The translations under genes and the position numbers were made by a program. From Lepidostoma basale (Eukaryota > Arthropoda > Insecta > Trichoptera > Lepidostomatidae), in contig JAHDVF020000211.1 of NCBI GenBank assembly GCA_022606425.2, positions 3,782,001 to 3,846,000 on the forward strand: a stretch of DNA of 64,000 nt. The letters run 5' to 3'. How positions within the stretch are numbered: position 1 is the stretch's first letter; each line of letters opens with the position of its first letter. Below the pieces are notes generated by a model. That model saw nothing but the letters and a program-made list of their open reading frames with translations, made no database searches and was not told the DNA's origin. Positions 1,518-59,330 of this stretch are shown here, piece after piece.

Positions 1518-1601
1518 TTTTACACCTGAAGATGGAGGTATCCTCCGAAACATGTATTTTTTAATAATTAGTGGATTAAACAAAGTTATAAAAAATCCAA
1601 A
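1518..1601 (+). repeat. Hammerhead-like repeat, family HH1
   Basis: Core CTGAAGA at 1526-1532, one extra T, stem II GGAGG/CCTCC with loop TAT (1534-1546), GAAAC at 1547-1551, then AT and GTA. The bases before the core (ACAC) would pair with the GTGT kept after the cleavage triplet in the copy at 36745-36790. Here those bases are lost. The downstream part to 1601 matches the arm ends of the palindrome at 36693-36905. Confidence 0.65.
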
Positions 1602-1624
1602 GTATATAATAATTTTTATTATTA

Positions 1625-1690
1625 TTATTCGCGACAGCTGTTTCACCAACCGAAGTTGGCATAATCAGGTGTTACAAACAACTGTTTTGA
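1625..1690 (-). repeat. Hammerhead-like repeat, family HH2
   Basis: On the minus strand: CTGATTA, a hairpin GCCAAC/GTTGGT, GAAAC, AGCT, GTC. It matches the copies at 11085-11150, 34370-34430 and 49485-49595. One base of the CUGANGA core is changed (G8 to T), so it is probably a dead copy. Confidence 0.6.
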
Positions 1691-2221
1691 AAACAAAAGT
1701 TTAATTTTAACAGTGAAAAATGTGGTCTTATTCACAAAAAAACTAATATACCTACACTAACACAAAATATTCATAAGATACGAAAACACCCATTTGTATG
1801 GTGAAATTAAAATGAATGGGTAACAATTTACACCCAAACTAAATACAACCCTCGAAATATCAAAAACCCGTAATATTTCATACGAATGGGCTCCTTACAC
1901 CCCGCGCTGCGTACCGCGGTATTGTATTGTGTCTTGTAATGACGGTACAATGGACCCCGCGCAGCGAAACCGGTCGTCTAGGGTCAAATAATTTTTGGGA
2001 CCCCGGCTTTGAATGGGTTGGGTTAATGTGATCAAATAATTTGTATTTTCGAGTTCGTACAGTCTCCGCCGAGGTTGCCAGACGTATAATGTATGGTTTG
2101 ATTATCTTCTGGGAAAATATTCGTTAATAAACTAACCCCCTAATTAAGTCCCATAAAAATATATTGCTCATTATTCCTTCGTCCTTGTTATTCAAAGAAT
2201 ATCAAATACTTATTTTTTATC

Positions 2222-2400
2222 TTCTTCTTCCTCAGCCTATTCCCGTCCACTTCTGGACAAAGGCCTCCTCCATTCGCTCCCATGTCACTCTGTCTTATGC
2301 ACACTGCATTCAGGTTATTCTGACGTGTCTGTTCAGATCATCCTTCCACCGTTATTGCGGTCGTCCTGCACTTCTTCTTGTCCACGGTTTCCAAGTCAGC
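2222..2400 (-). repeat. RTE-type LINE 3' fragment
   Basis: The minus strand carries a degraded C-terminal GRP-rich coding stretch and ends in an AAG-rich tail at 2222. It is the same family as the short end at 1137-1173. No intact frame. Confidence 0.45.
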
Positions 2401-2574
2401 AGTCGAAGCAGCAGCAGAGAATTTGGCTCGTAAGCTGACATGTTTAATCGGGAATAACTTTATGATGCAGACACAAATCGACTAATATTTCGATGGCGTT
2501 ATGTTTACAAATACTTAAGCTTATTGTATGACATCTACTCGTATGATCTATTTATTCCAACTACCACTTACCGC

Positions 2575-2755
2575 TACTGCCATTTCACTGCTTGTATATA
2601 TCATTTTAACCATTCTTTCATCATCCATTCGTTCCATATGTCTAAACCATCTTAGTGACCCTTAATTTTTTTAGTACGTATTCATCCGTCTAACATTTCT
2701 TTTTGACTTCTTCGTTGGGTATTCTATCATACCGTTTTTCCGCATAATATTCTAA
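2575..2755 (-). repeat. Decayed RTE-A/B fragment
   Basis: The minus strand still resembles the RTE segment that encodes the SLRWFGHMERM motif (compare 14480-14560), with many substitutions. An old copy. Confidence 0.4.
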
Positions 2756-3034
2756 TTAATCTCATTTCTATGTTGCATTGGCGGACCTATTTGGTGCTGT
2801 CATTTCCAATTGTGTCAACAACTTTCCACATATTGCAAGACAAAGATCCTCAATGTAGTTGAGCGCTTCATTGTATATTTCTTCTGTGAAATCCAAGCCA
2901 TGATTAAGTGCATCTTGACGCATTCTGTGCAGAATATCATCAGCCATGTAGTCTTTGTATTACTCCCATAATTGTACTGGTTGTGATGGAGAACATGTAG
3001 ACGAAATAATTGCGAATAGCGAAGTATTTGAAAT

Positions 3035-3555
3035 GGATTAAATAATAATGAAATAAAACGATATTTTTTAACTACTTCCACTTTTGTCTTTATTTCGACA
3101 GCAACCGGTTTCGCCAGGCTCGCTGGCATCGACAGACTGGTGACACTATTGTAAATTTAGTCCTTTATATACATACAGATCAGGGGTGGTAAACATGATT
3201 CTATACAAAAATAATCTTCAAATATTTATGTAAAATTTACTGAATCTAAATATTGGTGTAGTATATGTAATCGAAAATACAATTTTAAACCATTGTATTA
3301 TTTACGAACCTCCTTGAATACTTGCAATACCAAAATTTAAATTCAGTAAATTTTACATAAATATTTGAAGATTATTTTTGTATAGAATCATGTTTACCAC
3401 CCCTGATCTGTGTGTATAAATAGGACTAAGTTTACAATAGTGTCACCAGTCTGTCGATGCCAGCGAGCCTGGCGAATCCGGTCGCTGTCGAAATAAAGAC
3501 AAAAGTGGAAGTAGTTAAAAAACATCGTTTTATTTAATTATTATTTAAAATTAAC
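3035..3555. repeat. About 520-bp palindrome with two HH3 hammerhead-like cores
   Basis: The two arms (about 3035-3245 and 3335-3555) are reverse complements around a 90-base centre. Each carries family HH3. The plus copy has CAGT, CTGTCGA, T, stem GCCAG/CTGGC, GAATC, CG and GTC, then GCTG (3447-3488). The minus copy (3099-3144) keeps GAAAC. Stem I would be CAGU/GCUG with one wobble pair. Core position A6 is U in both, which should weaken cleavage. The outer ends (AAAACGATGTTTTTTAACTA-like) recur at 6505-6530, 10955-10980, 15690-15830, 19256-19286 and 24590. Confidence 0.8.
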
Positions 3556-3794
3556 TTCCATCAAGAGATTTCAGTAAAATCATTAGATTATCTGAAATGG
3601 ATAAGAAGTAGCGGATGAATCTTCTATTGACTTATCCTATGATACTTTCATCATTCTTCTGCCAAATTCAAGCTTAACTTTCATACATACTTTGCATCTA
3701 AATATATAAATAATGAATGTGAAGCAGAATTTAAGCAACATAATAATTAAGAAACTAATTAAATTACCTTTAAATTTCTCTAGGGTAATTTAAA

Positions 3795-4010
3795 TTTGAC
3801 ACGTCATAATCACGAATTTCACAGTTGCAGATAGTTTTCCCAAGTTGCATGTTGTAGGACGAACTTCCGACCAATGAGACGTCGGCCCGTGTTTGCTGGG
3901 GGTGGGGTTGGGCGTCGGGGCGGGGGTGTTGTGGGAGAACCAATGGTCAACAGAGTCGTGCGTCCAACATGGCGGTCTCAAGTACACACGGCGTATTGTC
4001 TAAAGACTCG
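3795..4010 (+). promoter_or_regulatory. GC-rich promoter-like island
   Basis: In an AT-rich setting this stretch has two CCAAT boxes (about 3870 and 3939), a G-rich GC-box-like run (3896-3928) and a CAACATGGCGG element near 3966. The combination looks like a TATA-less promoter or an LTR/UTR remnant. No downstream gene could be read. Tentative. Confidence 0.3.
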
Positions 4011-4164
4011 TTAACATGGAGAGTACTGTATTATCATATAAACTTATAATTAGTATTTTTAATTGAAATATCTTGGAAGAAGTTCATTTTAGACAATGAA
4101 ATCGAAAAAAAATATACGAGTATACAAACATTTCTTTATTATTATGTATTTAGTGTGCTTCCCC

Positions 4165-4262
4165 TTCTAGTCACCAGGCGATGGCAGCAAGCTGCCGAAA
4201 CCGGTCAAACATAAATACAAGTGGAAACACACTAAATACATAAAAATAAAGAAATTTTTTAA
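4165..4262 (+). repeat. Hammerhead-like repeat, family HH4
   Basis: CAGGCGA, T, stem GGCAGC/GCTGCC, GAAAC, CG and GTC (4174-4207). A relative with CAGAAGA lies inverted at 49313-49352. Core position U4 is A in both, so this is a variant or inactive family. Confidence 0.55.
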
Positions 4263-4379
4263 TAATTTTTTTTTTCATTATATAAACTTATGTTATATTC
4301 AAAATGAAAAAATAAAATGTGTTACATTTTAGAATTTTTAATCAAGAGAGTGATTGAAAAATAAATTATTAAGCATCTT

Positions 4380-4715: not shown

Positions 4716-4804
4716 AAGCATTGTGAAAATAAAATATTGTCTAAAAGTGATTCTAATATGAATATACACCACAAAGTGATAACGAATACAGAACAGATGA
4801 TCAT

Positions 4805-5015
4805 TATTATTTATTGTTTCTTGAATAATGATATAAAACTCCATATTAAATAATTAATACGAATGAAAACGTCAGTTTTCTAGAAGTTTTATGGAAATGA
4901 CATGCTTCGCCCTTTTAAGGCATTGTTAAATGTTGAAACGAAACATGTGATTTCCAAAAAATATAATAAAACTTCCGGAAAACTGACGTTTTCATTCGTA
5001 TTAAGAATTCATTAT
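4805..5015. repeat. Foldback element, family P
   Basis: Inverted repeat whose outer ends read TATTGTTTCTTGAATAATGA and whose arms contain GAATGAAAACGTCAGTTTTC. The centre has a GCCTTnnnAGGC-like hairpin next to GAAAC. Other copies are annotated at 10690, 18050, 22350, 28330, 32395, 36212, 49690, 55005, 58505, 60195, 60520 and 63395. This is the commonest palindrome in the window. Confidence 0.8.
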
Positions 5016-5039
5016 TAATTATTACCCATCGCTAGAATG

Positions 5040-5275: not shown

Positions 5276-5449
5276 ACTAGTACTATTTGTTAAAGGCGTA
5301 GTACTGAAATAGAAAAAGTATTAAATTTCTCAGGATTCCGCCTATTCTAATGTATGATTTTATTTACGTTATTTCTAACTCTGCCATTATGGAAAATATA
5401 ACTAACTTTGATAAGAAGTCATTACTTGGTGGTTGGACATATTTAACAC

Positions 5450-5700
5450 TTAATTCAACACTTTTTTAAATATACTTGGTATGCAACCACTTTATTATGT
5501 GAGGATGCGGGCCTACCGGTTTCGCTCTTCGAGCTTCGTCAGGGCTTGACACATACTGTATGTATCAAGCCCTGCCAGTATGTGTCAAGCCCTGACGAAG
5601 TTCGCATAGAGCGAAACCAGTACGCCCGCATCCTCACATAATAAAGTGGTTGCATACCAAGTATATTAAAAAAAAGTGTTTAATTAAGTGTTATATAACT
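5450..5700. repeat. Palindrome with two HH5 hammerhead-like cores
   Basis: About 250 bp, centre near 5565. The plus core is CTGACGA (5592-5598), A, GTTC/GAGC, GAAAC (5613-5617), CA, GTA. The minus core (5507-5558) is CTGACGA, A, GCTC/GAGC with loop GAA, GAAAC, CG, GTA. Stem I of the minus copy can pair GCC with GGC. A related copy is at 59170-59330. Confidence 0.75.
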
Positions 5701-5825
5701 AACTAACTAACCATCACTAAATAACCGAAATTGACACTTTTCTTTCCTGCATAGATACTTCACTCGCTTCCTCAACATTCATACATCGCGCCACATTCAA
5801 TATTTGATCGTGCCACTTTTAAATA
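5695..5825 (-). repeat. RTE-A 3' end with (TTAG)n tail
   Basis: Inverted TTAG-type tail at about 5697-5712, followed by degraded RTE-A 3' sequence. It abuts the HH5 palindrome and the next Q element. Confidence 0.6.
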
Positions 5826-6285
5826 TTATTTCTAAGGATTAATTGTATCTCCATAGAGACGAAGATGCAAATTGGAAACAGAATATGGTGGTCGAGGCGT
5901 TTACAGGACTTATGACATGTCATTGGTTAGGTTAAGCGCATGCTTTATGTAATACAACATTCCCCATTCCGCGCTTCTTACGACCACCACGTCTGACAAA
6001 TTTTTGGAAGATGTATGTATGCTACAATGTAGGACCACGCTTCACATTTTTTAGTTCAATCTACACTAGCGCCATCTATTAAGATTTAATTAAGCATTAA
6101 GCAGAAGATCTCTATTAACGCAATGTGAAAGGCTACCGCCATTAACATACATTGCTAGATAACGCCCGGAGATGTCTCTCCAATTGTTATGCTTTTTTAA
6201 CTTGGACCAGTTTTTTTACAACATTTTGAATATATACAAATACTTGTAGACGATTACTGGATTTTTCCCATTGCGGGTTTGGAAT
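5826..6285. repeat. Foldback element, family Q, copy 2
   Basis: Starts with the GTATCTCCATAGAGACGAAG arm end and is largely collinear with copies at 39530-39872 (inverted) and 44563-44865. It ends at the ACTGGATTTTTCCCATTGCG block. No coding capacity. Confidence 0.75.
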
Positions 6286-6600: not shown

Positions 6601-7414
6601 TTTATTTATTTTTTGTTTTATTTAATTATTATTCCTTGAGGCCCTATGCACCACGGAGGTATGACAGGACAAAAAGAAGAAGAAGATTATTTAAAATGAA
6701 CTTCTATCAAAATAAATCAAAAATCATTTGATTTATTTATTTATTTGATGCTAAAATGCTTTAAGAACGATCATTTTTTGGAAATTGAAGATTTATGTTG
6801 TATCTAGTTTTAAAAAATCTGTATTTTCCATTTTATTTAAATGTTTTTTTTATTACGATTTAACAAATTAAAACTACATAATTGTATTCAAATTGCAAGT
6901 ACCTTAAATTTCTTAATTAATTTAAATTTCTTTGTAAAATACAATGAACAGAAAATGGTTGCCGAACAGACCAGCTGCCGAAACTGAAAGAACAAGCGAA
7001 ATTAAACTTGAAAGTATTGACACTATTAAAAAGTATTTTAAATGTTTACTAAATCTAATACTATATTTTAAACCCGATACAATTGCTAAAATAAGTTTGA
7101 TTAAAATTCGCATGTCGATGGTTTCTGATACCTAAAGAATAATCGTACCAATAAAGGTAAACGACCCCACCACAAAAGCAAATCGGCCGAAATTCGAAAT
7201 TTTGTAAATTGAACTGTTAGCCATCTGTGAATGACTTCGGTAACTAGAAAGCCGATTGCATACCTACCGTTTTCTGCGTGGTGCCTACCCTTGTACCTCT
7301 CGGTAGCTATCCCCAAATCAAACACACCACCTAGGTATCCACTTTAACAGCGATTCTCAAATGTAAATAATTAAAACTTCTTAAAAAACTTTTTAAGAAA
7401 TACGACAATAACAA
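6601..7414. other. Noncoding, no recognised element
   Basis: Mostly AT-rich. The part 7140-7330 is more complex (about half GC) and unique in the window. Short overlapping frames on both strands around 6922-7325 show no family features. Confidence 0.3.
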
Positions 7415-7418
7415 AGAT

Positions 7419-9174: not shown

Positions 9175-9325
9175 TGTAGCTAATCTATTACCTTTTTTTT
9201 ATTTTCACGTGAATTCTACACCAGACCAAAGACAGTGTGATCACACTGCCCTCGCCGGGAATCGATCCCGGAACCTTCGGGTGGTAGTCAATGCACTTAC
9301 CACTCGGCCACGAAGGTCGTCAGGA
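9175..9325 (-). repeat. tRNA-headed SINE
   Basis: The minus strand starts with a tRNA-like head. It has an A-box-like TGGCCGAGTGGTAAG near 9300 and a B-box GGATCGATTCCC near 9265, then a body shared with 46630-46875 and 50990-51230. Pol III promoter boxes are visible; the body is truncated. Confidence 0.7.
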
Positions 9326-10689: not shown

Positions 10690-10880
10690 TATTTTAACTA
10701 ATTAATACGAATGAAAACGTCAGTTTTCTAGACTTTTTATGATATTTTATGGGAATGACATGTTTCGACCTTCTAAGGTATTATCAAATGTTTGATAAAA
10801 CTTCTAGAAAACTGACGTTTTCAATCGTATTAATTATTTAATATGGAGTTTAAATCATTGTTCAAGAAACAATAAATACA
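10690..10880. repeat. Foldback element, family P
   Basis: Both arms are present: GAATGAAAACGTCAGTTTTC on the left and its complement on the right, then the AACAATAAATA outer end at 10870. The central loop is shortened. Confidence 0.8.
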
Positions 10881-11084: not shown

Positions 11085-11370
11085 TTTTGTCGCAACATCT
11101 GTTACGCTAACCGATGTTAGCATCATCAGGTCTCACAATCAACTAAAAATACACCAGAAAGGCCTTATTTATACACAAAATTATTAGGAGCGGAAGAAAC
11201 TGCATACAATATTGTAAATAATTATAATAAAGTTGGGGAAAAACAATATTTAGGTTCAAAACAATTGAAAATCTAAATTCACTTTATTTATATTATTATT
11301 TTTTCTAGTTTACATTTTTACCCCGACGATGAAGGCTATAAACCTTCGAAACTTGCCGAGAAAAATAAAC
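11085..11370. repeat. HH2 copy (minus) and an HH1-like copy (plus)
   Basis: Minus 11085-11150: CTGATGA, T, GCTAAC/GTTAGC, GTAAC in place of GAAAC, then GATGTT. Plus 11325-11365: CCGACGA, T, GAAGG/CCTTC, GAAAC. Both are degraded hammerhead-like cores with intact stem II. Confidence 0.5.
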
Positions 11371-13359: not shown

Positions 13360-13780
13360 ACCTATCACATTAAAAAAAAAAAAAAAACAATTGTGATACA
13401 TGAAAACAGAGTTTATATTTTTTTCTATGTTCGCCATAACTTTGTGTTGTAGATGTTTAATGTTTCTTTTTTGTGTACTTTGTATAGAACACAATAATTT
13501 ATTTAAAAAAATTAAATTAAATATCAAACATGTGTCGGACTAAACAGCCCTCCATCAGAGGTATTAAATAAATATTTAGAATATTATACAATTGTTTACA
13601 AATATGGTCAGTTTTGACAGATGCTATAATGATTTATTTTGGAACGTTTATGCTTTTGTTATAACAAATATAATGAATAAATTTAAAATTTAAAATCATA
13701 ATTTAAAGTTGTTATTGGGGTTCAAATTCAACAAAGGAAATAAATCAAATATTGGACTTGACGTTATATTATATTTATTT
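13360..13780 (-). repeat. Long HH6 hammerhead-like element
   Basis: Reverse complement of 17690-18045, with the same order of arm, core and a distal AT-rich part. The core (minus, 13530-13565) is degraded: CTGATGG, a hairpin, then CGACAC instead of GAAAC. The tail block with TTTGTGTTGTAGATGTTTAA matches the 3' end of the unit at 22425-22680. Confidence 0.65.
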
Positions 13781-14215: not shown

Positions 14216-14744
14216 GTAAACTAACTAACTAACTAACTAACCATCACGCCGTCTCCCCCAAGGGGTAGGCAGAAAGAATGGACTGCCACACTTTTCTTTC
14301 CTGACATATTTCTCTCGCTTCCTCAACATTCATACATCGTGTCATGCACGCGCGTCGATTTCTCTGACTCCTCACATGGCCAACATTCAATATTTGATTT
14401 ATTTGATCGTGCCACGTTTTCCTCGGTCTTCCTCTATTTCTGGTTCTATTTACATCATTAACATATAATTTTTTTACCATTCTTTCTTCATTCATTCTTT
14501 CCATATGTCCAAACCATCTTAATGATCCTTTCATTATTTTGTCCATGACACCATCATTCGCACCGCATTCAGTTCTTATATTTTCATTCGACACTCTAGC
14601 ATACACAGAGTATCCACACATTCGTCTAAGAGATCTCATTTCTACTGCATTTATTCTACTTTCATCCTTCTTTTGCCAGTTCCATGCTTCGCTTCCATAC
14701 ATAAGGGTCGGTAGAAGAACACCATTGTACGTATATTATATAGC
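14216..14744 (-). mobile_element. RTE-A LINE, best-preserved 5'-truncated copy
   Basis: It contains a 152-codon open frame (14244-14702, minus). This is the post-RT C-terminal part of an RTE-clade LINE protein. Motifs seen: YGSEAW, INAVEMRSLRRM, GSLRWFGHMERM, RNRGRPRKTWHDQI, RNRRACMTRCMNVEEAREIC and the end YPLGETA. A (TTAG)n tail sits at 14221-14240. ATATATAGCT flanks the insertion at 14206-14215 and 14745-14754, a likely target-site duplication. The truncation removes the endonuclease and RT domains, so it cannot move alone. The open frame suggests a recent insertion. Confidence 0.85.
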
Positions 14745-15560: not shown

Positions 15561-15644
15561 TTTTTTTTATATTGACTCTACTTATGGATTATTATATTTT
15601 ATTCAAATATAAAAATCTTAAGAGATATTTAGTTATAAAATTAA

Positions 15645-15845
15645 ATGATGAAATCTCTTGATGGAAGTTCATTTTAAATAATAATGAAATAAAACGATGT
15701 TTTTAAACTACTTCCACTTTTGTCTTTATTTAGACAGCGACCGGTTTCGCCAGGTTCGCTGGCATCGACAGACTGGTCGCTGTCTTAATAAAGACAAAAG
15801 TGGAAGTAGTTAAAAAACATCGTTTTATTTAATTATTAGTTACAA
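15645..15845. repeat. Compact HH3 palindrome
   Basis: Two HH3 arms meet at 15780 with almost no spacer. The minus core (15733-15780) reads CTGTCGA, T, stem GCCAG/CTGGC with an extended loop, GAAAC, CG, GTC. Outer ends are AAAACGATG-type on both sides. Confidence 0.75.
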
Positions 15846-16039
15846 AATTATTTAGAACTAGAGTTTTTCATAATAATTGTATTTTGATCAATTAATTCAA
15901 AGTATCCGAAAATAAATTGATTTTATATTTTTCGGGTATATTGAATTCATTGTCTCGGTGGTACCATGATTTCCTTGGTTCTCCTTGAGTTTGAATATAT
16001 TTTAACTATAATTCATTGTTCCCACGTTAAATGTGAACT

Positions 16040-22349: not shown

Positions 22350-22810
22350 TTATTAATTATTGTTTCTTGAACAATGATGTAAAACTCCATATTAAAAAAA
22401 TAATATGAATGAAAATGTCTCTTTATCTTTTTCTTTTTTATTTACTTTGTATATATAACACTAACTTTAAAAAAAATTATATATCAGTTTTGACAGATGT
22501 GATAAAGACTTATTTTGGAACGTTTATATTATCACTGAGGAAGGACTGATTGTCCGAAACATGTCTGATATATAATTGAATTTTTTGTAAAGTTAGTTTT
22601 GTAGGTATATACAAAGTATATAAAAAGAAAAAAGAAAAAAAAATAAAACATCTACAACACAAAGTACGGCGAACATAGAAGAAAATGTCTCTTTTCAAGA
22701 AGTTTTATTATAATTTATGTGAATGACATGATTCATTTGATAATACCTTAGACAGGCGGAACAAATCATTAATATAAAATGTGCTGGAATTCGTATTAAT
22801 TATTTATAAG
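22350..22810. repeat. Foldback P interrupted by a nested HH6 element
   Basis: The left end (TATTGTTTCTTGAACAATGA, 22360) and right end (GAATTCGTATTAATTATTTA, 22790) of a P element are split by the unit at 22425-22680. The P element was therefore present first. Confidence 0.8.
22425..22680 (+). mobile_element. Complete 256-bp HH6 hammerhead-like unit with target-site duplication
   Basis: GAAAATGTCTCTTT flanks it on both sides (22411-22424 and 22681-22694). The arms 22425-22487 and 22566-22635 are inverted repeats, followed by a 45-base tail (22636-22680). The core lies between the arms: TATCA (22530-22534), CTGAGGA (22535-22541), A, GGAC/GTCC with loop TGATT (22543-22555), GAAAC (22556-22560), AT, GTC (22563-22565), TGATA (22566-22570). 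Stem I (TATCA/TGATA) has five perfect pairs. The layout fits the short-stem-III type I hammerhead of Penelope-like elements, apart from one extra base before stem II. Catalysis is inferred. Confidence 0.8.
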
Positions 22811-25777: not shown

Positions 25778-27825
25778 TCACGTGGCCTCCTCCTTGCAGG
25801 CGTTAGAGTCGTCCGATATTATTCCGAGGGGAGCGCCACCCTTGCTTTGGTTCACCACGCACTTACGCATGTGCTTCTCGAGGGTGGACGGTACGGAGAA
25901 AGGCATCTCGCAAAACCGGCAGCGGTAGACGTCTTTCCCCAGCCGGCCGTGGGTCTTCATGTGGCGCGTGAGCTTCGAGCTCTGGGCGCACGCGTACGAG
26001 CACAGCTCGCACTTGTAGGGCTTTTCCCCCGTGTGGGAGCGCCGGTGAACGGTCAGGTTCGAGCAGTTCTTGAACACCTTCCCGCAGTACTCACACGTGT
26101 CGTTCCGCCGGTTGTCCTTGGACTTGAGCAAAGGGTTCTGCAGAAGGCTGTTGGGGTTCGACTTCAAACCATCGAAAATGTTGTCGGGAGGCCGTTGTCC
26201 GTGAAGGTTGGGCAGCCACCAGCCATCGCCTCTTTCCATCTCCAGCTTCATTCGCTTGCTGGCCTCAAAAGGGTTTTCGAAAGGGTTGAAGAGTGGGTGA
26301 GGTCCACCAGGGCCAGGCTGCCCGAGCATGTTTTTTGCAAACTCTTCCTTGAGTCTGAGGGCTGAAGGCGGTAGACCGTTCAGTTTCTCTTGGGATCCGG
26401 GAGGGATGGCCCCTAGACCGTTATTGTTATCGTGATCCTTATTAGCTAGCTGCCATTTATGTGCATTGCCCGACTCTTGGAGGGCTTGCTTGTAGGCTTC
26501 ACTATATTGAGCAATGTTTGACAAACCAAATTTATCCATCAGTTCTCCCACGAGAGATGCTGCACTCACAGGCGGTTGTGTGAGATGGTTAAGTGGCTTT
26601 AATGGTTTTGGAGGTAAGCCCGTTGACGGAACACTCAGATCTTCAGCTTCATCTTCCTGATATTCATCATCCTCTTCTTCCTCTTCGACGTCTTCTTCTT
26701 CTAATTCTTCGTTGGAATCTTCCTCGTCTAGAGTTTCTACAGAACCAGCATTACTAGTCCGATCTTCTGGCGTTTGGTGGATCTTCATATGACGTTTCAG
26801 TTTTGAGCTTTGAGCGCAAGCGTGGTCGCATACTGTGCACTTGTATGGTTTTTCTCCAGTATGTGCGCGTTTATGTACGATAAGATTACTTTGGAAGCGG
26901 AATTTCTTCCCACAAAACTCACAAGAATGAACCGAGTCCTCCGAGGTGCCCAGGAGAGCCTGCTTAGAAGGAGGGGTCGACGCGGACCGCGGAGTCGTGG
27001 TGATGGCGGGGGCGGATGAAGGGGCCGCCGAGAGTTCCGATCTCTTCTCGGGCGGCGTGAGGCTCTGCGGTCTGCTAGAGTTGCTGTTGCTGTTGTTGTT
27101 GTTATTCGTCACCGGCGTGGGCGGCAGGTGAGAAGGAGAGGGGGAAGCGAAAGGTGGAGATTGCTTCCGGGGGCTAGGTGAGCTTGAATTGCCTGTGGCC
27201 GCCCCCGGGCTGGTTGTACCGGCCAGTTGCCGCAAGCGCTGCGAGTAAAAATCCAGTTGTGGTTCTAGAGATAGTTGTTGGCTGGGTGGAGGGAGAGAAC
27301 GGTCTCTGGAGGGGACCGGAGGAGCGGGAGGTCTGTCCGAGGGTGGGGGAAAAGGGGCATGCGGAGGAAGAGACCCCGCCGCCACGGCTGCGGCGGCCGC
27401 CGCCGCTGCGAGGTTTAATCCGTGGTGCCTAAACTGTTCCGAGACAAGCTGCTCCATTCTGAACCGGTGGTCGTGGTGAGATGGTCTGGCGAACATCGGC
27501 GCGGGTGGGCCTGGGGGATGCGCCAGAGATGGTAGGTTTCCTCCCAACGGCATTCTCAGCAGACTACCGACACCGAAAGGACTGTGTAGATCCGGTGGGG
27601 GAGGCGGTAGGATAGGGTGGTGGCGTAGCGACTGGGGCAAGGGAGCCCCTCCTCCAGATGAGCAAGAACTCGTGGAGCACGAGGAGCTAGAACTGTGGTT
27701 GCTTTTATGAGGTCCTGGAGATTCCACGTAAATTTTCACTCCGTGTGAATGTTGAACGTGCTGCAGGAGGCGCCAGGCAGAGTGGACGCGCGTCTTGCAC
27801 GTTGAACAAACGTAGTTACTTGGTT
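25778..27825 (-). CDS. BCL11: BCL11A/B homologue, last coding exon (six zinc fingers and stop)
   Basis: A C2H2 transcription factor of the BCL11/CG9650 family, expected to act in the nucleus as a sequence-specific regulator. Exon of 2048 bases: two bases complete a split Glu codon, then 681 residues and TGA at 25778-25780. The acceptor AG is at 27826-27827. Numbering from the first full codon: EPSNYVC starts finger 1 (C6, C9, H22, H27); fingers 2 and 3 at about 301-349; fingers 4 to 6 at about 577-655, including [20 protein letters not shown] and ending in HMRKC, so the last finger is C2HC. Between them lie a polyproline and serine-rich start, an Ala tract (139-150), an Asn run (240-248), an acidic tract (365-396) and SKRMKLEME, which aligns with SKRIKLEKE of vertebrate BCL11A. 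The sequence is far more GC-rich than its surroundings. Function is from family knowledge. Confidence 0.95.
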
Positions 27826-27954
27826 CTGTAACAAAAAGAAAAAAAATTTATTAAATTTGCATTATTTAATCTATGACGTCTACTTATGAACATTTTTCTA
27901 ATAAATCACAGCAAATTTTCCGCCGTTTATCATTCAAAGAAAGGGTCATCTGAA

Positions 27955-28329: not shown

Positions 28330-28680
28330 AAATACAATATTCTTATGTATTGTTTTTTGAACAATGATGTAAAATATCATATTAAATAATTAATACCAAT
28401 AGAAACGTCCGCTTTCTCGAAGTTTTATTATATTTTACGTGAATGACATGTTGCATTTGATAATGCATTGGCAATACGAATCATGTCATTCCCATAAAAC
28501 TCGTAGAAAACAGACGTTTTCGTTTATATAAAAAATTTAACTAATTTGTTAAGCAATTATCAAACATTTATTTCACAAAAAATACATTTGATAATATCTT
28601 TCAAGACGAATCATGTCATTCTCATAAAATAACATTAATCTTTAAGAAAACAGACGTTGTTATTCGTATTAATTACAAAA
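28330..28680. repeat. Foldback P, full copy plus a half copy
   Basis: The full copy at 28340-28540 has arms AGAAACGTCCGCTTTCTCGA and AAAACAGACGTTTTCG. An extra right half lies at 28590-28680 (GAAAACAGACGTTGTTATTC). Confidence 0.7.
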
Positions 28681-28859
28681 TATTTATAAAATAAAAAGAA
28701 GCATTCATATAAGTAATTTTGCTGGAAATCAAAGAAGATTTGGAAATATGCATTTTATCCTTCTGGTTCCTGCATTTTCATATTTTATAGTTCAAAACAT
28801 AATACAAAATTAACGACACTACATAGTTAAAATGCGAAAGCTACCGCAAGAAAATAGAA

Positions 28860-32394: not shown

Positions 32395-32655
32395 TTAGTT
32401 AAAACAATTTCACGAATATTTAATATGAATGAAAACGTCCTTTTTCTAGAAGTTTAATTTTATTTTATGGGATTTAGACGTTTCGCCTTACTAAAGCATT
32501 GTCAAATGTCGTAAACATTTGATAATGCTTCAGTAAGACGAAACACGACAGTCCCATAAAACATTATAAAACTCATAGAAAACAAACGTTTTCATTCATC
32601 TTATTATTTGTTATAGAGTTTTACATCATTATTCAAGAAACGGCAAATAATCTTT
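32395..32655. repeat. Foldback P, well preserved
   Basis: Arms GAATGAAAACGTCCTTTTTC and GAAAACAAACGTTTTCATTC. The central dyad around 32500-32530 carries TTGATAA, T, GCTTCAGTAAG, ACGAAAC on the right arm, a degraded hammerhead-like order. Confidence 0.8.
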
Positions 32656-34952: not shown

Positions 34953-35650
34953 GATGAAAGTAGAATAAATGCACTAGAAGTGAAATCTCTCACGAATATG
35001 TGAAAAATCTGTGTATGATAGAGTGTCGAATGGAAATATGATAAATAAATGCAGCGTGAATGAAAGTGTTATGAACAAAAAAATGAAAGGAACATTATGA
35101 TACTTTGGACATATGAAATAAAATGAATGAAGAGAGAATGGTAAAAAAGTATATCTTAATGGTGTTATTGGAACTAGAAATAGAGGAAGAACGAAGAATA
35201 CGTGTACGAACAAATAAATAAAAAATACCACTAGGTCTACCTCGACTCCGTACTCCATTTACATCGTTAATGTATACTTTTTTAACCATTCTTTCTTCTC
35301 CCATGCGCTCCATATGTCCGAACCAACGTAGCGATCCATTCATAATTTTGTTCGTATTACCTTTTTTCGCTCTACATTCCTTTCTAATATCAGCATTTGA
35401 GATTTTGTCGTACATCGTTCTACCACACATACGTCTTAGGGACCTCATCTCTACCGCATTTATTTTGCTCTCATCTTTCTTCTGCCTGTTCTATGCTTCG
35501 CTTCCACACATAAGGGTTGGGACCAGAACTCCATTGTGAACGGCCATTTTCGCTTTCATTGATAAATTCTTGTTTCCAATAACTATGTGGCAGTCCATTA
35601 TTTCTGCCTATCCCTTCGGGGACACGGCGTGATGGTTAGTTATTTAGTTT
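34953..35650. repeat. RTE-A (plus) interrupted by RTE-B-like fragment (minus)
   Basis: RTE-A sequence runs 34953-35222 and resumes at 35587-35650 with its TTAG-type end. Between them, 35230-35570 (minus) encodes KINAVEMRSLRRMCGRTMYD, KIMNGSLRWFGHMERMGEER and GVRSRGRP, a B-like variant without a tail. Nested insertion is inferred from the order. Confidence 0.65.
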
Positions 35651-36129: not shown

Positions 36130-36205
36130 GTAAAATTTCGGAACGGAGTGGCAGCAGCTATGACTACTACACGTTTGATTCCGGCGATGATGGCAAAAAT
36201 GTTGC
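36130..36205 (+). repeat. Degraded SINE head
   Basis: GGAGTGGCAGCAGCTATGAC and TTTGATTCCGGCGATGATGG are the A-box and B-box regions with a deletion between them. The block 35700-36120 before it is unassigned. Confidence 0.5.
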
Positions 36206-36211
36206 TGTAAG

Positions 36212-36412
36212 TGGTTTATTGTTTCTTGAATTGAATATTAAATTATTAATACAAATGAAAACGTCTGTTATCTAGACGTTTTAATATATTTTATTTAAAT
36301 GACATGTTTCGTCTGTCTAAGACATTTGATAATGAATTAGACAGGCGAAACATGTCATTTACATAAAATACAAAAAAAATCTAGAAAACAGACATTCGTA
36401 TTAATTTTCTGT
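36212..36412. repeat. Foldback P
   Basis: Arms AAATGAAAACGTCTGTTATC and GAAAACAGACATTCGTATTA. The right arm centre reads TTGATAA, T, a hairpin, AGGC, GAAAC, AT, GTC (36327-36358). Confidence 0.8.
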
Positions 36413-36477
36413 AATTGGTTTTATATTACCTGTTGCTTACAGAAAATAACCCATTATTATGAATATACTTAGGAAAC

Positions 36478-36692
36478 CAGAAATAGAGGAAGACCGAGGA
36501 AAACGTGGCACGATCAAATAAATCAAATATTGAATGTCGGCCATGTGAGGAGTCATAGAAATCGACGCGTGTGCATGACACGATGTATGAATGTTGAGGA
36601 ATCGAGAGAAATATGTCAGGAAAGAAAAGTGTGGCAGTCCATTCTTTCTGCCTACCCCTTCGGGGAGACGGCGTGACGGTTAGTTAGTTAGT
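36478..36692 (+). mobile_element. RTE-A LINE 3' fragment with 12-bp duplication
   Basis: TACTTAGGAAAC flanks it at 36466-36477 and 36693-36704. It encodes RNRGRPRKTWHDQINQIL through the CMNVEE block and ends in TTAG units. It inserted into the outer arm of the HH1 palindrome to its right. Confidence 0.85.
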
Positions 36693-36905
36693 TACTTAGG
36701 AAACTGAAAATAACTTTGTTTAATCCACTAATTATTTAAAAAATATGAAAAAACACGACATGTTTCGGAGGATACCTCCATCTTTATGTGTAAAAATATA
36801 ATATTTTTATGCCTGAAGATGTTATCCTCCGAAACGTGTCGTTTTTTAAATATATTTTTAATAATTAGTGAATTAAACAAAGTTATTTTCAATTTCCTAA
36901 GTATA
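36693..36905. repeat. HH1 palindrome with two hammerhead-like cores
   Basis: Arms 36693-36790 and 36810-36905. The minus core (36748-36785) reads ACAC, ATAAAGA, T, GGAGG/CCTCC, GAAAC, AT, GTC, GTGT: stem I ACAC/GTGT is perfect but CUG is lost. The plus core (36818-36842) keeps CTGAAGA and GAAAC, GT, GTC, with a deletion in stem II. Confidence 0.75.
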
Positions 36906-37114
36906 TTACTATGGAATTCCACAAAGTTAATGCCTTAGCGTTCAATACATTATTAGCAAGAAGGAATCGAGTCGTGTTCAGGCTTGAATCTAAATCTCCT
37001 TTATTAGGAGCCAAGCGTTTTATCCCCAAGACCACCATCTAATTCCTGTCAATATTCATTTGTCTATAAATATAAAAAAGTAAAATGATGATTCATTAGT
37101 GTATAGAGTGGTGT

Positions 37115-39354: not shown

Positions 39355-39530
39355 TGTTTTTTTTTCACTTTTAAGTTTATTTTTCTAGACACGCTTCGAA
39401 AGTTTTAGACCTTAATCATTGGGAGTAAATTATAAACTGATTCTTTTAAAAAAAAATATAGTTCTCTTGATGAAGAATATGGAAACACGACAAGAAAAAT
39501 AAACTCAAAAGTAAAAAAAAAGTTGTAAAA
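39355..39530. repeat. Imperfect inverted repeat
   Basis: TTTTCACTTTTAAGTTTATT and TCTAGACACG on the left face their near-complements at 39480-39520. The right half has CTTGATGA and GGAAACACGAC, a degraded hammerhead-like order. Confidence 0.5.
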
Positions 39531-39872
39531 AACTGGTCCAAGTTAAAAAGCATAAAAAAATTGAATAGATTGAACTAAAAAATGTGAAGTGTATCCCAAC
39601 ATTATAGCATACATACATCTTCCAAAAATTTGTCAGACGTGGTGGTCGTAAGAAGGGCGAAATGGGGAATGTTGTTTTACATAAAGTGTGCGCTTAACCT
39701 AACCAATGACAAGTCATAAGTCCTGCAATCGCCCCGACAACCATATTCTATTTCCAATTTGCATCTTCGTCTCTATTGAGATACAATTAATCCTTAAAAA
39801 TGATAACCCGCAATGGGTAAAATCCAGTATTCGTCTACAAGTATTTATATACATTCAAAATGTTAGAAAAAA
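39530..39872. repeat. Foldback element, family Q
   Basis: Inverted relative of 5826-6285. Contains GTCAGACGTGGTGGTCGTAA and ends with the complement of the ACTGGATTTT block. Confidence 0.75.
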
Positions 39873-44562: not shown

Positions 44563-44865
44563 TAAGGATTAATTGTATCTCAATAGAGACGAATATGTAA
44601 ATTGTTTTCTGGGAACAGAATATGGTGGCCGAGGGGCTTACAGGACTTATGACCTGTCATTGGTTGGGTTGAGCGATCGCTTTATGTTTAACAACATTCA
44701 CCATTCCGCCCTTCTTACGACCACTACGGCTGACAATTTTTTGGAAGTTGTATATATGCTAAGATGCCGCGCCTATCTTTACATTTTTTTAGTTCACTCT
44801 ACACTAGCGTCATCTATTAAGATTGGGAAGCATTAAGCAGAAAATCTTTATTAATGCAATTGTAA
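44563..44865. repeat. Foldback element, family Q
   Basis: Collinear with 5826-6130, from GTATCTCAATAGAGACGAAT to the end of the GCATTAAGCAGAAAATCTTT block. Confidence 0.75.
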
Positions 44866-47580: not shown

Positions 47581-47889
47581 ATTGTACTTTATTCTGTTTT
47601 GTTAAGCGGCTTCTGTTAGTTTCTGTTAACGAAAAAATAGAATTCACTATCGATAGTTATTGTTTTAATTTTAAAAAACTCCATTAAAATTCGGGCGTGT
47701 ATTAAAAACTCCGCTTTTTTATATTATTCATAAAAAATATATATAAATAATAGTTAGAAATTTGTTACACTTTGCTATGGCATTCTTAAATTGACTTGGT
47801 TTAGGACTGCCCTCACAAGGCAAAACAAATTTATCACTGTTATTTATATATATTTTTTATAAATCATAATAAAAAATCAATGTGAAAAT

Positions 47890-49299: not shown

Positions 49300-49360
49300 G
49301 TTGTGTTTTACACCGATTTCGGCAGCTTGCTGCCATCTTCTGGTAGCGAGCTTTCCAGAA
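49300..49360 (-). repeat. HH4 hammerhead-like copy
   Basis: Minus strand: CAGAAGA, T, GGCAGC/GCTGCC, GAAAT, CG, GTG. Core and cleavage triplet are altered. Confidence 0.55.
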
Positions 49361-49379: not shown

Positions 49380-49660
49380 AAAAATATATAGTCCATTGTT
49401 TTGGCTTAAGCACTCTGATACTTCAACATTATTACTATTAAAATTTAAAACACTGTTATAATATCACATTTTCTTTTTATCAGATTGTCGCGACAGCTGT
49501 TTCGCCAACCGATGTTGCAACCGGCATCATCATCATAGTTTATTTGTAACACCTGATGATACCAACATAGGTTGGCGAAACAGCTGTCGCGATACTCGGT
49601 AAATAAAAATAAATTGTGATATTATAACAGTGTTTTAAATTTTAACAGTAAAAAAATTAT
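49380..49660. repeat. HH2 palindrome with two hammerhead-like cores
   Basis: Arms with AAAACACTGTTATAATATCA at 49447 and its complement at 49615. The plus core: CTGATGA (49553-49559), T, ACCAAC/GTTGGC, GAAAC (49577-49581), AGCT, GTC (49586-49588). The minus core at 49485-49535 keeps GGCGAAAC and GTC, but the left of stem II is expanded. Stem I is weak in this family. Confidence 0.7.
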
Positions 49661-52400: not shown

Positions 52401-52404
52401 ATGT

Positions 52405-53455: not shown

Positions 53456-53553
53456 CTGGAGAAGAAATTTTGCGAATCGCAAAATTGATTTATTTTATCA
53501 CATTTCTCTTAAATTTACATATCAGAAAATAAAGACATCATAATATTGTATAA

Positions 53554-53902
53554 TGTACCTAAGGCAGATGACTGCATCATGGATAAAATTAAAAAAGGAT
53601 CCCTGAGATGGTTAGGACATACGGAACGAATGGATGAGAGTGGAATGGTTAAAAAGTTGTACACAAGCAGCGCGAGTGGAAAAAGAAACCGAAGACGACC
53701 GAGGAAAACATGGCTTGACCAAATTAATCAATTACTAAAAGGCGGTCTCATTCGAAGTCGGAATAATCGACGTGCGGGCATGGTACGATGTATGAATGTA
53801 GAGGAAACCCGAGAGGTATGCCAGGACAGAACATTGTGGCGATCCATCCTCTCTGCCTACCCCTCCAGGGAAATGGCGTAATGGTTAGTTAGTTAGTTAG
53901 TT
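53554..53902 (+). mobile_element. RTE-C LINE C-terminal fragment with target-site duplication
   Basis: ATATTGTATAA flanks it at 53543-53553 and 53903-53913. Open frame (53546-53881): KIKKGSLRWLGHTERMDESG, RNRRRPRKTWLDQINQLLKG, VRCMNVEETREVCQDRTLW, ending YPSREMA. A TTAG-type tail follows. It sits in the intron only about 90 bases upstream, in gene sense, of the linker exon. Confidence 0.85.
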
Positions 53903-54990: not shown

Positions 54991-55004
54991 TGCCCATACA
55001 ATAC

Positions 55005-55425
55005 ATATAATAAAATTTATTCGAATGACAACGTCTGTTTTCTAAAAGTTTTAGTGTATTTTATGTGAATGACATGTTTTGCCTGTCTTAGGCATTATCA
55101 AATATAGCGTAATTCGAATGTTTTGAGTTTGTATTTCACTACGTTTGATAATGCCTGAGATAGGTGAAATATGTCATACCATAAAATATAATATAAAAAA
55201 ACCCTCTAGAAAATAGATGTTTTCATTGGTATTAACTAACTAACGAACCATCACGCCATCTCGCCGAAAGGGTAGGCAGAAATAATGGACTGCCACACTT
55301 AAACCGATGCGGCACTCCATCCTTCTCTTTTCGCCCCCGCGAGAGATGCGATGTGATTTTTTTCATTGGTATTAATTATTTAATATGGAGTTTTAGATCA
55401 TTATTTAAGGAACAATAAATAGTGT
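55005..55425. repeat. Foldback P interrupted by an RTE-A2 fragment
   Basis: P arms 55015-55235 and the outer end 55360-55425. The insert lies at 55236-55359, and TTTTCATTGGTATTAA is duplicated at both edges. Confidence 0.85.
55236..55359 (-). mobile_element. RTE-A2 3' fragment with 16-bp duplication
   Basis: Inverted CTAACTAAC tail, CCATCACGCCATCTCGCCGA, then the subfamily block CTTTTCGCCCCCGCGAGAG. 124 bases. Duplication at 55220-55235 and 55360-55375. Confidence 0.85.
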
Positions 55426-55429
55426 TGTA

Positions 55430-55790: not shown

Positions 55791-55917
55791 AGTGTCTTAT
55801 TTGACTTGTTTCTCAATACAATACTCATTACACTAAAGAATTTAAACAAAACACAATTTTTTTACGAATTTCAATTCTACATAATTTTAACACAAAACGT
55901 ATAAACCACTTTTCAAA

Positions 55918-56310
55918 ATGGGCGCAATCCTCACATATGGCATTGAATCGAGGGCAGACACTGTCAAGACAAAGAGCATGCTCAGGACAACCGAGATGAA
56001 AACACTCCGCGCTGGCAAGACCCTACGTGATCGAGTTAGGAATACAGCGATCCGAGAAATCTGCGAGGTCGAAGATGTGGTCAGATGGAGACGTCAAAGA
56101 CGGCGATACTGGCATCAACACGTAGAAAGGATGAGCTCAAATAGCATACCACACATAGCTCTCCATGGAACGCCAAACGGACAACGCCGACCAGGAAGAC
56201 CCCCGAAATGGTGGAGAGAAAGCTGGAGTTCAGCGTCTCAAGAGAAACCGCCTGAAATAACAGACTCCTGAGTCTACCAAAAGTGAAGAAGAAGAAGAAG
56301 AAGAAGTATA
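55918..56310 (+). repeat. RTE-D LINE C-terminal fragment
   Basis: A 117-codon frame with MGAILTYGIESRADTVKTKS, KTLRDRVRNTAIREICEVED, VVRWRRQRRRYWHQHVERM and GQRRPGRPPKWWRES, then an AAG run (GAAGAAGAAGAAGAAGAAG). YG-E-RAD and GRPP-W are RTE post-RT motifs. The frame is intact to its stop, so a fairly young copy. Confidence 0.75.
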
Positions 56311-56389
56311 AACCACAAATACACTTCACATACACTATAAATAACTTATATGTAGTTTAAAAAATACACTTGTTTTTAATCGTAAATAA

Positions 56390-57310: not shown

Positions 57311-57424
57311 TGAATAATGAAGAAAATTAAGTTGAAATCAATACACATTAAGATATGTTTCATTTCCCTTGTTCCCTATTTGGTCCCTAATTTTGTAATT
57401 TTTATATTAAGATTATATAGTGTG

Positions 57425-57482
57425 CGATAAAAATGTCTCCATGGAACGGGTTACCCCAGTTGGGAAGTATTAAAACCACGTA
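57425..57482 (+). repeat. Short repeat shared with 46915-46985
   Basis: GAACGGGTTACCCCAGTTGG and GTATTAAAACCACGTA. Confidence 0.55.
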
Positions 57483-57497
57483 GAGTTTGTTCATTTA

Positions 57498-57918
57498 AGG
57501 GAGATTGTTTGCAATAGTGTGAGTGACAGTGCGTTTACAAAAAAATAGTCTGTGTTTATTTAACATTCTTTAAAATAATAGGCAAAAAAATATTTTATGT
57601 TCAGGCATACAGAGTTAAAATTCAAAATAATTAGTTGTTAAAGTTTAATTATTTCAAATATCAAGTGTCCCGGGTAATGGTATCTAGAAGTTTCAATTTT
57701 CTAGCAATGTGTAGTCAAAAACAAAACCACAAACGCAATCATGTCCTTCCGCCGTTAAAATTAATTTATTTTCCTATTTTCCAAATAGTAGTAATATTCT
57801 AACCCTCGAGTATTTTAGAAGCATTCACACTCCGCCTACTAAAACTCATGAACCAATCAGATAGCGTTATATAACCAATTTAGGAGGTACCACTAACACT
57901 ATTGCAAACCATCTCCCC
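57498..57918. mobile_element. MITE with about 28-bp terminal inverted repeats
   Basis: The left end (57499-57525, GGGAGATTGTTTGCAATAGT and on) and right end (57891-57918, complement GGGGAGATGGTTTGCAATAG) match with few mismatches. The interior is noncoding and AT-rich. No clear target-site duplication seen. Confidence 0.75.
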
Positions 57919-58079
57919 GAATTGAATAAACTATACTTGAAAAATGATTAATAAATAAGTAAATCGTATAAATGCGTGCTGTTACTCCAGATTTGAACAC
58001 ATGTACGTAAACAACTCGTTTGATATCATCAGACTATTTGATTTGTGGTCATCATCTAAATTGTATCATCAAATGGCAG

Positions 58080-58180
58080 GAGGTCAATGACACAGTGGGG
58101 CGAGGGATAGAAAGTTGTAGAACTTGTGAAGGGAGGTCTACGTCCAACATTGGATGACAAATTCATGATGATGATGACAA
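58080..58180 (+). repeat. RTE-like 3' end with ATG-type tail
   Basis: GGAGGTCTACGTCCAACATT then GGATGACAAATTCATGATGA: the GL(R/C)P--DD end followed by an ATGATGATGA tail. Confidence 0.5.
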
Positions 58181-58181
58181 C

Positions 58182-58412
58182 AACATTGCACAAATGCAAG
58201 AATTTCGTTTATTTAAATATTGTTTTTTTACTGGTACTTGATCAATGATGGATAACTCTATATCAAATAATACATAACAGATTTTACCACATGTATGCAA
58301 ACAATCTTTAACAATATTGCACATTTGCAATAAACTTACTTGTTTAAATTTTGTTTTTTTACTGCTACTTGAGATGATGGATTACTCTATATCAAATAAT
58401 ACATAATACAAT
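58182..58412 (+). repeat. Tandem duplication, two units of about 120 bases
   Basis: TTGTTTTTTTACTGGTACTT to CTATATCAAATAATACATAA at 58220-58277 recurs at 58341-58407. The flanking ATTGCACA(A/T)TTGCA part is also repeated. Confidence 0.75.
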
Positions 58413-58669
58413 CAATGTATAATAATAAAAATATTTGATTGTGAAAACGACACAAATCACTGTCATATATAACGTTGGCACACGTCAATATATTAAAATT
58501 TAAATTATTGATACAGCAAATTTATTGTTTCTTAAACATTGATGCAAAAATTTCATATAAAGTAATTAATCTCGATGAAACGTCCGTTTTATGGAATGTT
58601 TGACGTATTTCGCCTTGTTAGGGCATTATCAAATGATAGATTTTTTAATCTTTGATAAGAAGCCAATAA

Positions 58670-59150
58670 TTACTTGCTGGTTTGGCATTCTCAAAAGAAA
58701 GGTCTATGACATGTGTATACTACCCATGATGACATACGGACTAGAGACGACAACTCTTACAGCAAAAAGTGTCCACAGGCTCAAGTGTACACAGAGGTCC
58801 ATGGAAAGACAGATACTTGGTGTGAGCTTGCGTGACCGCATAAGGAATGAAGAAATCAGACGCCGCACCAGGGTTGCTGACGTCATGAACCGAGTGGCAA
58901 AATTGAAATGGCAATGGGCTGAACACTTGGCTAGACAGGGTGGCAACAGATGGCACCCAGGATACTCGTGGATACATGGGCAAATAGGCGAAGTGTCGGA
59001 AGGCCACCGATGAGATGGACCGATGATATTGTCAAAAGGGTTGGAAAATCTTGGATACAAAGGGGGCAGGATAGAGACGAGTGGAGGAAATTTGAAGAGG
59101 CATGCAGCAGTGGAGGGAAGAAGGCTAGAAAAGAAGAAGAAGAAGGTTTG
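58670..59150 (+). repeat. RTE-F LINE C-terminal fragment
   Basis: Encodes VYDMCILPMMTYGLETTTLT, MERQILGVSLRDRIRNEEIR, RVADVMNRVAKLKWQWAEHL and, after a frameshift near 58985, RRSVGRPPMRWTDDIVKRVG, then RDEWRKFEEACSS. These are the standard RTE post-RT motifs (PVMTYGAETW, ME-LGVSLRDR, KWQWAGH, GRPPTRWTDD). Frameshift and truncation make it a pseudogene. Confidence 0.8.
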
Positions 59151-59164
59151 GCATATTCAAAAAT

Positions 59165-59330
59165 AAAATTAAACACTTTTTCAGTTAGTATAAACCAGCT
59201 TCCTCATGGCTACACACATTCAAGGTTTGTGTATAGCCCTGAGGAAGTTAGCTACAGAGCGAAACCGGTTAGCGCTACTTACTCAAATAAAGTGTTGTAT
59301 ACTAAATGAAAAAGTGTATAATTATATTTT
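59165..59330. repeat. HH5 palindrome
   Basis: The plus core is CTGAGGA (59239-59245), A, a weak GTT/GAGC hairpin, GAAAC (59261-59265), CG, GTT. The left arm at 59170-59215 is the complement of the right up to the core only. Confidence 0.6.

Follow-up and report, generated by a model that had tools for sequence, protein, structure and literature searches.

Foldback repeats with hammerhead-like motifs in Lepidostoma basale as probable non-coding stubs of Penelope-like retrotransposons

The window analysed here is a stretch of 64,000 nucleotides from Lepidostoma basale (NCBI GenBank assembly GCA_022606425.2, contig JAHDVF020000211.1, positions 3,782,001 to 3,846,000 of the forward strand), to which all positions given without a contig or locus name refer. 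It contains many short inverted repeats (foldbacks), most of which look like short doubled copies of Penelope-like elements (PLEs) carrying a motif built like a hammerhead ribozyme. A first-pass annotation, made from the letters alone, had described five foldback families (HH1, HH2, HH3, HH5 and HH6) as unrelated, while sharing one hammerhead-like core with a very short stem III, and had placed them among hammerhead-bearing elements such as PLEs and retrozymes. This kind of element is already known, and the foldbacks extend a known, poorly understood type of mobile element.

The hammerhead-like motif and its families

Core scans on both strands of the window revealed a common architecture in seven families, consisting of a CUGANGA-like core, one base, a paired hairpin, GAAAC, a palindrome and GUH; stem II measures 4-6 bp and is followed by GAAA, a short palindrome and H (Table 1). 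The palindromes seen, ACAUGU, ACAGCUGU and ACCGGU, confirm a very short stem III. The type I order (CUGANGA, stem II, GAAA, stem III and UH, open at stem I) is present in HH1, HH2, HH5 and HH6, and departures at one or two core positions are found in HH3 (A6U), HH4 (CAGGCGA) and HH7 (UUGAUAA). Of the 34 hits with a score of at least 17 in a 210-kb part of contig C1, 32 have an extra base between A9 and stem II. The A9-U-G of the core reads as ATG in the majority of copies of HH1, HH2, HH3, HH4 and HH7, and in these ATG families the distance from A9 to H17 is 25-30 nt. Decay is frequent among the copies, as in the CTGATTA core at 1668 (-) and at 36813 (+), where stem II is shortened.

That several foldback families share one hammerhead-like core is thus borne out by the core scans and by the excess over chance given below. 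The initial list of families was true but incomplete, leaving out HH4, HH7 (24 of whose 103 arms from 364 kb of sequence fall in the window) and the decayed HH8, HH11 and HH13, the window holding more decayed families with the motif beyond the seven. Their description as unrelated holds in part and fails where profiles cross-match, as HH5, HH3 and HH6 are also caught by the profiles of HH10, HH4 and HH12, respectively. Similarly, the stem II pairs GGAGG/CCUCC, GCCAG/CUGGC, GCUC/GAGC and GGAC/GUCC were recovered as listed; GCCAAC/GUUGGC was not found in the window, where HH2 has GCCAAC/GUUGGU (1668, -) and ACCAAC/GUUGGC (49553, +), the exact pair occurring in L027.

A genome-wide count of the core, proposed at first pass, gave a large excess. 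The exact descriptor CTGANGAN{9,24}GAAACN{2,4}GTH matches 54,895 times in the 768.8-Mb genome (27,510 + 27,385) versus 620 times (330 + 290) for the same pattern read backward, an 89-fold excess; two exact patterns scanned against viral contigs gave no match. With a scored descriptor, the window has 10 hits at a score of at least 17 versus 0.83 expected from 40 order-3 Markov simulations; eight of them fall inside foldbacks found independently by blastn and the other two (1526 and 1668) inside an interval added by hand. Across 210 kb of C1, 34 hits were observed versus 3.17 expected at a score of at least 17, and seven versus none in 12 simulations at a score of at least 20. Since the scored descriptor, used for the window, C1 and 364-kb counts, demands stem II and the palindrome, pairing within its hits is no evidence for structure.

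Table 1. Hammerhead-like motifs, foldbacks and insertions in the window; listed scan cores are exact or carry one or two departures. TSD, target site duplication
Feature	Positions	Strand	Core in scans	TSDs	Details
HH1 hammerhead-like motif	1526..1556	+	1526+		ACAUGU palindrome; A9-U-G reads as ATG
HH2 hammerhead-like motif	1633..1668	-	1668-		ACAGCUGU palindrome; core CTGATTA
HH3 insertion	3025..3602		3135-, 3451+	3025-3038 / 3589-3602	foldback 3038-3548; hammerheads 3103-3135 (-), 3451-3483 (+); tail 3549-3588, right only
HH4 insertion	4036..4291		4175+	4036-4047 / 4280-4291	left extension 4048-4103; foldback 4104-4276; hammerhead-like motif 4175-4206 (+)
HH7 insertion	4801..5023			4801-4815 / 5009-5023	left tail ~4816-4842; foldback 4843-5015; motif 4899-4929 (-)
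HH5 insertion	5396..5704		5542-, 5592+	5396-5407 / 5693-5704	left extension 5408-5439; foldback 5440-5697; hammerheads 5514-5542 (-), 5592-5622 (+)
HH7 foldback	10691..10844				motif 10757-10787 (-); tail on right
HH2 hammerhead-like motif	11094..11129	-	11129-		compensated stem II GCUAAC/GUUAGC
HH6 second copy	13527..13558	-			decayed: core CTGATGG, GACA
HH3 insertion	15629..15850		15771-	15629-15643 / 15836-15850	left tail 15644-15671; foldback 15672-15845; hammerhead 15739-15771 (-)
HH6 insertion in older HH7 copy	22411..22694		22535+	22411-22424 / 22681-22694	foldback 22422-22639; hammerhead 22535-22565 (+); right extension 22640-22680
HH7 foldback	28379..28683				decayed motifs 28457+, 28588+
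HH7 foldback	32400..32623				motifs 32475-32505 (-), 32519-32549 (+)
HH7 insertion	36205..36421			36205-36217 / 36409-36421 (weak; 13 nt, one mismatch)	left tail; foldback 36245-36405; motif 36326-36356 (+)
HH1 foldback	36685..36911				motifs 36757-36787 (-), 36813-36840 (+)
HH11 foldback	39358..39521				decayed motif
HH13 foldback	47715..47876				decayed; assigned by eye; relatives on C1 with UUGAGAA core and 10-nt palindrome ACAAAUUUGU
HH4 second copy	49311..49342	-	49342-		
HH2 foldback	49429..49654		49533-, 49553+		motifs 49492-49533 (-), 49553-49588 (+)
HH8, decayed		-	54951-		
HH7 foldback	55016..55235				motifs 55071-55101 (-), 55145-55175 (+); no visible tail on either side
HH5-like foldback	59159..59331				motif 59239-59270 (+); remnant on opposite arm
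HH7 foldback	60208..60363				motif 60280-60310 (+); no visible tail on either side
HH7 foldback	63450..63545				motif 63454-63484 (-); tail-like sequence on both sides

Pairing and compensatory change

Copies for covariation were gathered by profile searches with the arms and not by pairing, and only ungapped rows were kept for pair counts, rows with gaps or inserts being dropped (HH2 27/39, HH7 48/103, HH5 16/26). Stem II cells pair in 89.2% of cases in the 27 HH2 arms and in 82% in HH7, the latter versus at most 52.7% with slid partners. In HH2, 16 cells are changed on both sides versus a shuffled mean of 7.3, a count reached in none of 500 shuffles, and these double changes sit at two adjacent stem II pairs, mainly as C-G to U-A exchanges in either direction; the 16 HH5 arms have 11 such changes versus 5.4 (0/500 as high). 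The compensatory change in stem II expected at first pass is found in HH2 and HH5 and is not significant in HH7. Because the shuffle values are inflated by relatedness of the copies, more weight is put on differences between families, where unpaired core letters are kept while paired letters vary, and where stem III letters change and yet stay palindromic. Over nine typed family consensuses, stem I forms 32 contiguous pairs versus 10.1 expected with shuffled partners (p 5e-5).

Arrangement of arms, tails and target sites

In the foldbacks examined, the hammerheads point outward, and this is the inverted head-to-head arrangement of Penelope-type pseudo-long terminal repeats (pLTRs). Among 100 listed exact cores of C1, all eight neighbours less than 150 bp apart are oriented (-,+), versus 0.95 expected in any orientation, and those less than 700 bp apart comprise 11 (-,+), 2 (+,-) and 2 (+,+). 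Core spacing within pairs is 13-65 nt in 13 of 17. In C1:1-200000, the family profiles account for 37 of 55 foldbacks, and three of the remaining 18 look like HH13 by eye.

The longer arm carries a family-specific extra of about 38 nt in HH3 and about 45 nt in HH7, and the HH3 tail is by eye one-sided in 4/4 foldbacks. A search for TSDs covered 56 hammerhead foldbacks, 37 from C1 and 19 hand-listed from the window, and found direct repeats with a score of at least 10 at the ends of 13, versus 8.1-8.5% in mismatched flanks; one of these, being the motif itself, was dropped. All 12 retained elements end on one side within 12 nt of the repeat and bear 27-56 nt on the other. The extra sequence resembles the optional tail of 30-40 bp on one pLTR of PLE-type elements, although 43 of the 114 repeats that arose by chance between mismatched flanks have the same geometry. 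The visible duplications measure 10-15 bp. In elements of the window, nine arms measure 52-73 nt from the predicted cut to the end of the element without a tail and 83-115 nt with it. That tails are often one-sided suggests that two start sites of reverse transcription are used in an ordered way. The HH6 foldback at 22422-22639 is inserted in an HH7 copy that is split at GAAAATGTCTCTTT; since this target is now duplicated around HH6 as a 14-bp TSD, HH6 is the younger insertion.

Upstream of the core, conservation reaches background by about 4 nt in HH7, 7 nt in HH3 and 15 nt in HH2, HH5 and HH11. In five of eight families the stubs end shortly past the ribozyme, a feature that is perhaps new. 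An arm beginning within 2 nt of the cut was met once among 278 profile arms (an HH6 arm; the HH6 and HH12 profiles share some of the 278), so that the genomic ends carry no footprint of cleavage. A cleaved RNA as the usual template was rejected on this count; with arm starts at the cut so rare, the template copied seems to be uncleaved RNA, which is also suggested by the Poseidon PLE of Anolis carolinensis (PAc). At 6615-6690, an HH3 arm has about 50 nt of unrelated sequence between arm end and tail.

Endonuclease-like copies and other coding sequences

At two loci of C1 an endonuclease-like frame lies near a hammerhead on its downstream side. The stop of the fragment L003:5503-5763 is followed, 192 nt further along its own strand, by a decayed HH6 arm, and its relative at C1:1343516-1343740 (+) is followed by an exact hammerhead 186 nt on. 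At up to one substitution, the endonuclease motif used to find the fragment is expected 0.0 times in 364 kb (20 simulations). Relatives of the fragment were scored for 150 of 5070 candidates, all with E<=3.4e-27 and with open frames of up to 862 aa, while the Pfam GIY-YIG model has 62 matches in the genome in frames of up to 758 aa. Endonuclease pairs less than 3 kb apart, picked by eye among the matches listed, are head to head in 15/15, the same arrangement as in the small foldbacks. Of ten open reading frames (ORFs) of other loci, three had Pfam matches (transposase, integrase/RNase H and RVT_1), none assigned to a PLE.

Among other features of the window, a 689-aa open frame at 25778-27847 (-) contains several C2H2 zinc fingers according to Pfam and presumably resembles BCL11-type regulators, which points to an animal and probably an insect genome; the frames at 14244-14735, 35095-35490, 53513-53881 and 55891-56271, none with a Pfam match, we take to be like coding fragments of non-LTR (non-long terminal repeat) retrotransposons. 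A tRNA-like (transfer RNA-like) sequence at 9247-9317 (-), scoring 29.6 bits versus the Rfam threshold of 29, is perhaps the head of a short interspersed nuclear element. A 215-bp palindrome at 832-1046 is 88% complementary, has no hammerhead seen in it and resembles a miniature inverted-repeat transposable element (MITE). A second inverted repeat family (TTAATTGTATCTCAATAGAGACGAAGATG) occupies 281-814, 5824-6063, 39566-39805 and 44609-44789 and is by eye also present on C1, where a relaxed core test of its copies found no hammerhead.

A lineage with U3-A8

HH7 and HH13 have UUGANAA, that is U3-A8 instead of C3-G8, with U-A at both core columns in 45 of 47 HH7 alignment rows. When the 3/8 pair was counted in 364 kb, demanding GAAA, the palindrome and a stem II of at least 3 bp, CG was found 21 times, TA 15, GG 3, TG 3, TT 2, CT 2 and AG 2, with five others once each; the reversed-sequence control gave six in total (TA 1, CG 0). 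By eye, the 15 TA rows comprise 11 HH7, two HH13 and two that are not hammerhead-like. As HH7 and HH13 may share an ancestor, U3-A8 would represent one or two events and not many. In the PLE of a lizard, cleavage is lost with a single C3G or G8C change and partly regained when both are made (PMC11167929; statements on published systems, here and below, follow excerpts of the cited papers), and U3-A8 would thus keep the catalytic pair. Among the papers listed on hammerheads in Lepidoptera and on C3-G8 exchange, no title or abstract opening reports such a natural variant, and the lineage may be new.

Origin of the foldbacks

The foldbacks are best explained as non-coding stubs left by Penelope-like retrotransposons, with a probability of about 0.9. 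Kinship with PLEs, one of the two possibilities raised at first pass, is supported by the head-to-head layout, the one-sided tails, the TSDs in a subset, the position of ATG and the endonuclease-like copies upstream of hammerheads. From these observations we infer priming on two strands, the 5' end of the template, the identity of the enzyme and cleavage, hammerhead catalysis being predicted from the sequence of the motif.

Several findings weigh against this origin. Rfam, also proposed at first pass, told against it, as no hammerhead model reached its threshold: none was found on the whole window at the gathering threshold or at E<=10, and on short stretches RAGATH-1-hammerhead and Hammerhead_1 gave, with one example each, 13.7 and 15.5 bits versus thresholds of 34 and 56.3; reaching these scores is a matter of detection limits and not required of the structure. 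HH7, with 47 distinct copies, has no excess of double changes (7 versus 5.4, 137/500 shuffles as high), stem I is weak in HH2, HH4 and HH7 (1, 1 and 2 pairs), and HH5 and HH6 have AAG in place of ATG. The 18 C1 foldbacks without a family match yielded no core in a relaxed test. Target duplication is seen in a subset only (12/56, with about 8% expected by chance), the HH7 tail is by eye one-sided in 6/9 foldbacks, on both sides in one (63450) and on neither in two (55016 and 60208), HH1, HH6 and HH12 have no sharp inner end, and four of 17 hammerhead pairs are spaced 315-625 nt apart. On the coding side, the endonuclease identity of L003:5503-5763 is presumed from a motif match and was not confirmed by Pfam, which did not call the fragment GIY-YIG; a search of PDB and a protein collection gave no protein homologue and nothing useful, and no listed relative falls at the place of any of the 62 GIY-YIG matches of Pfam. 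The three endonuclease places listed for C1 differ in what lies downstream, with an exact hammerhead at one, a decayed hammerhead at another and, for 1342724 (-), none in the list. Finally, Pfam found no PLE protein among ten window ORFs (zinc fingers in one, nothing in nine).

Under a PLE origin, the inverted pairs could also have arisen by hairpin self-priming of one cDNA (complementary DNA) instead of two initiations, a route put forward for PLEs of bdelloids on the strength of palindromes found where inverted copies join (PMC3846280). An arm copied from the other should however give equal outer ends, and all 12 TSD elements are extended on one side only, so that two independent starts fit better; the frequency of the same geometry among chance repeats and the less uniform HH7 tails leave self-priming some room, and we regard it as unlikely. 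Retrozymes, small non-autonomous elements with tandem hammerhead repeats spread by circular RNA, would account for hammerheads without an adjacent ORF, and retrozyme-like repeats have been reported from invertebrates, insects included (PMC7229834). This second possibility raised at first pass was not borne out and is very improbable, as close exact hammerheads are mostly inverted (8/8 of the listed C1 cores below 150 bp) and head-to-tail repeats were not observed, same-orientation neighbours amounting to 2/15 within 700 bp among cores for which no dedicated tandem-repeat search was made. Equally hard to credit are foldback or MITE-like DNA transposons whose hairpins merely resemble hammerheads, which would fit the inverted repeats, the short TSDs and foldbacks such as 832-1046 in which no hammerhead is seen, but not the unpaired core kept while paired letters vary, a stem III that changes and stays palindromic, the 89-fold excess of the exact descriptor or the one-sided tails.

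If the foldbacks are PLE stubs, the source RNA would bear near its 5' end a minimal type I hammerhead made of stems I and II and a palindromic stem III of 6-10 nt, and with such a stem III cleavage is predicted mainly as a dimer; in most families the A9-U-G of the ribozyme core would be the ATG of the ORF. The PLE protein would cut both target strands, and on each of them a cDNA would begin at either of two sites, about 50-75 or 80-115 nt past the hammerhead cut in the downstream direction. Every cDNA would be extended back across the hammerhead and, in five families out of eight, would halt about 4-17 nt past the core. Joining of two cDNAs head to head would then give an inverted pair with an outward hammerhead in one or both arms, usually with a one-sided tail, and with a target duplication of 10-15 bp where still visible. 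Short stubs would be explained by a template 5' end just upstream of the hammerhead or, alternatively, by a stop at the ribozyme fold.

A more specific combination of claims is advanced tentatively, as a possible but rather doubtful whole. Each foldback may be a frozen record of a PLE insertion, composed of two 'strong-stop' cDNAs that copy the messenger RNA from its 5' part, begun on both target strands, usually from different start sites, and linked head to head; the ribozyme core may double as the start codon, which would render cleavage and translation mutually exclusive; and a widespread lineage may use U3-A8 in place of C3-G8 as a natural double mutant of the active site.

Relation to known systems

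The genome has about 55,000 exact cores, many of which lie in short inverted stubs, and so offers a large natural data set on PLE integration, which bears on whether one or two cDNAs are made per insertion, on where the template RNA starts, on whether RNA is copied after cleavage (the arms suggest that it is not) and on whether an active site works with U3-A8. Of most value to a specialist are the lineage with U3-A8, the inner ends, which are near-fixed in five of eight families, and the tail that is often found on one side only.

Minimal type I hammerheads of PLEs have reportedly been described by Cervera and de la Pena in 2014 and by Lunse, Weinberg and Breaker in 2017. Like those presented in PMC7761336, where their role is called unknown, the motifs described here have the type I order, CUGANGA and GAAA with a vestigial stem III, and are numerous and dispersed in an animal genome, differing by the U3-A8 of HH7 and HH13 in place of C3-G8. 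Animal non-LTR retrozymes also have type I hammerheads without an ORF, in tandem repeats and not in the inverted pairs seen here (PMC7229834). In Penelope families of Adineta vaga, inverted pLTRs lie head to head with a 31-bp tail on one and a short TSD, as here; their TSDs are 8-10 bp versus 10-15 bp, and the inverted pLTR accompanies a coding copy (PMC3846280). PAc has two start sites of reverse transcription, with most starts 111-118 bp into the ORF; its tail, an extension of 30-40 bp, corresponds to the stretch between the two starts, and the protein cuts and extends both strands in vitro (PMC11167929). The PAc ORF starts at stem II and the hammerhead cut lies 26 bp into it, which compares with 25-30 nt after the start codon in the ATG families; PAc copies are tandem and carry the ORF, whereas the window has ORF-less inverted stubs (PMC11167929).

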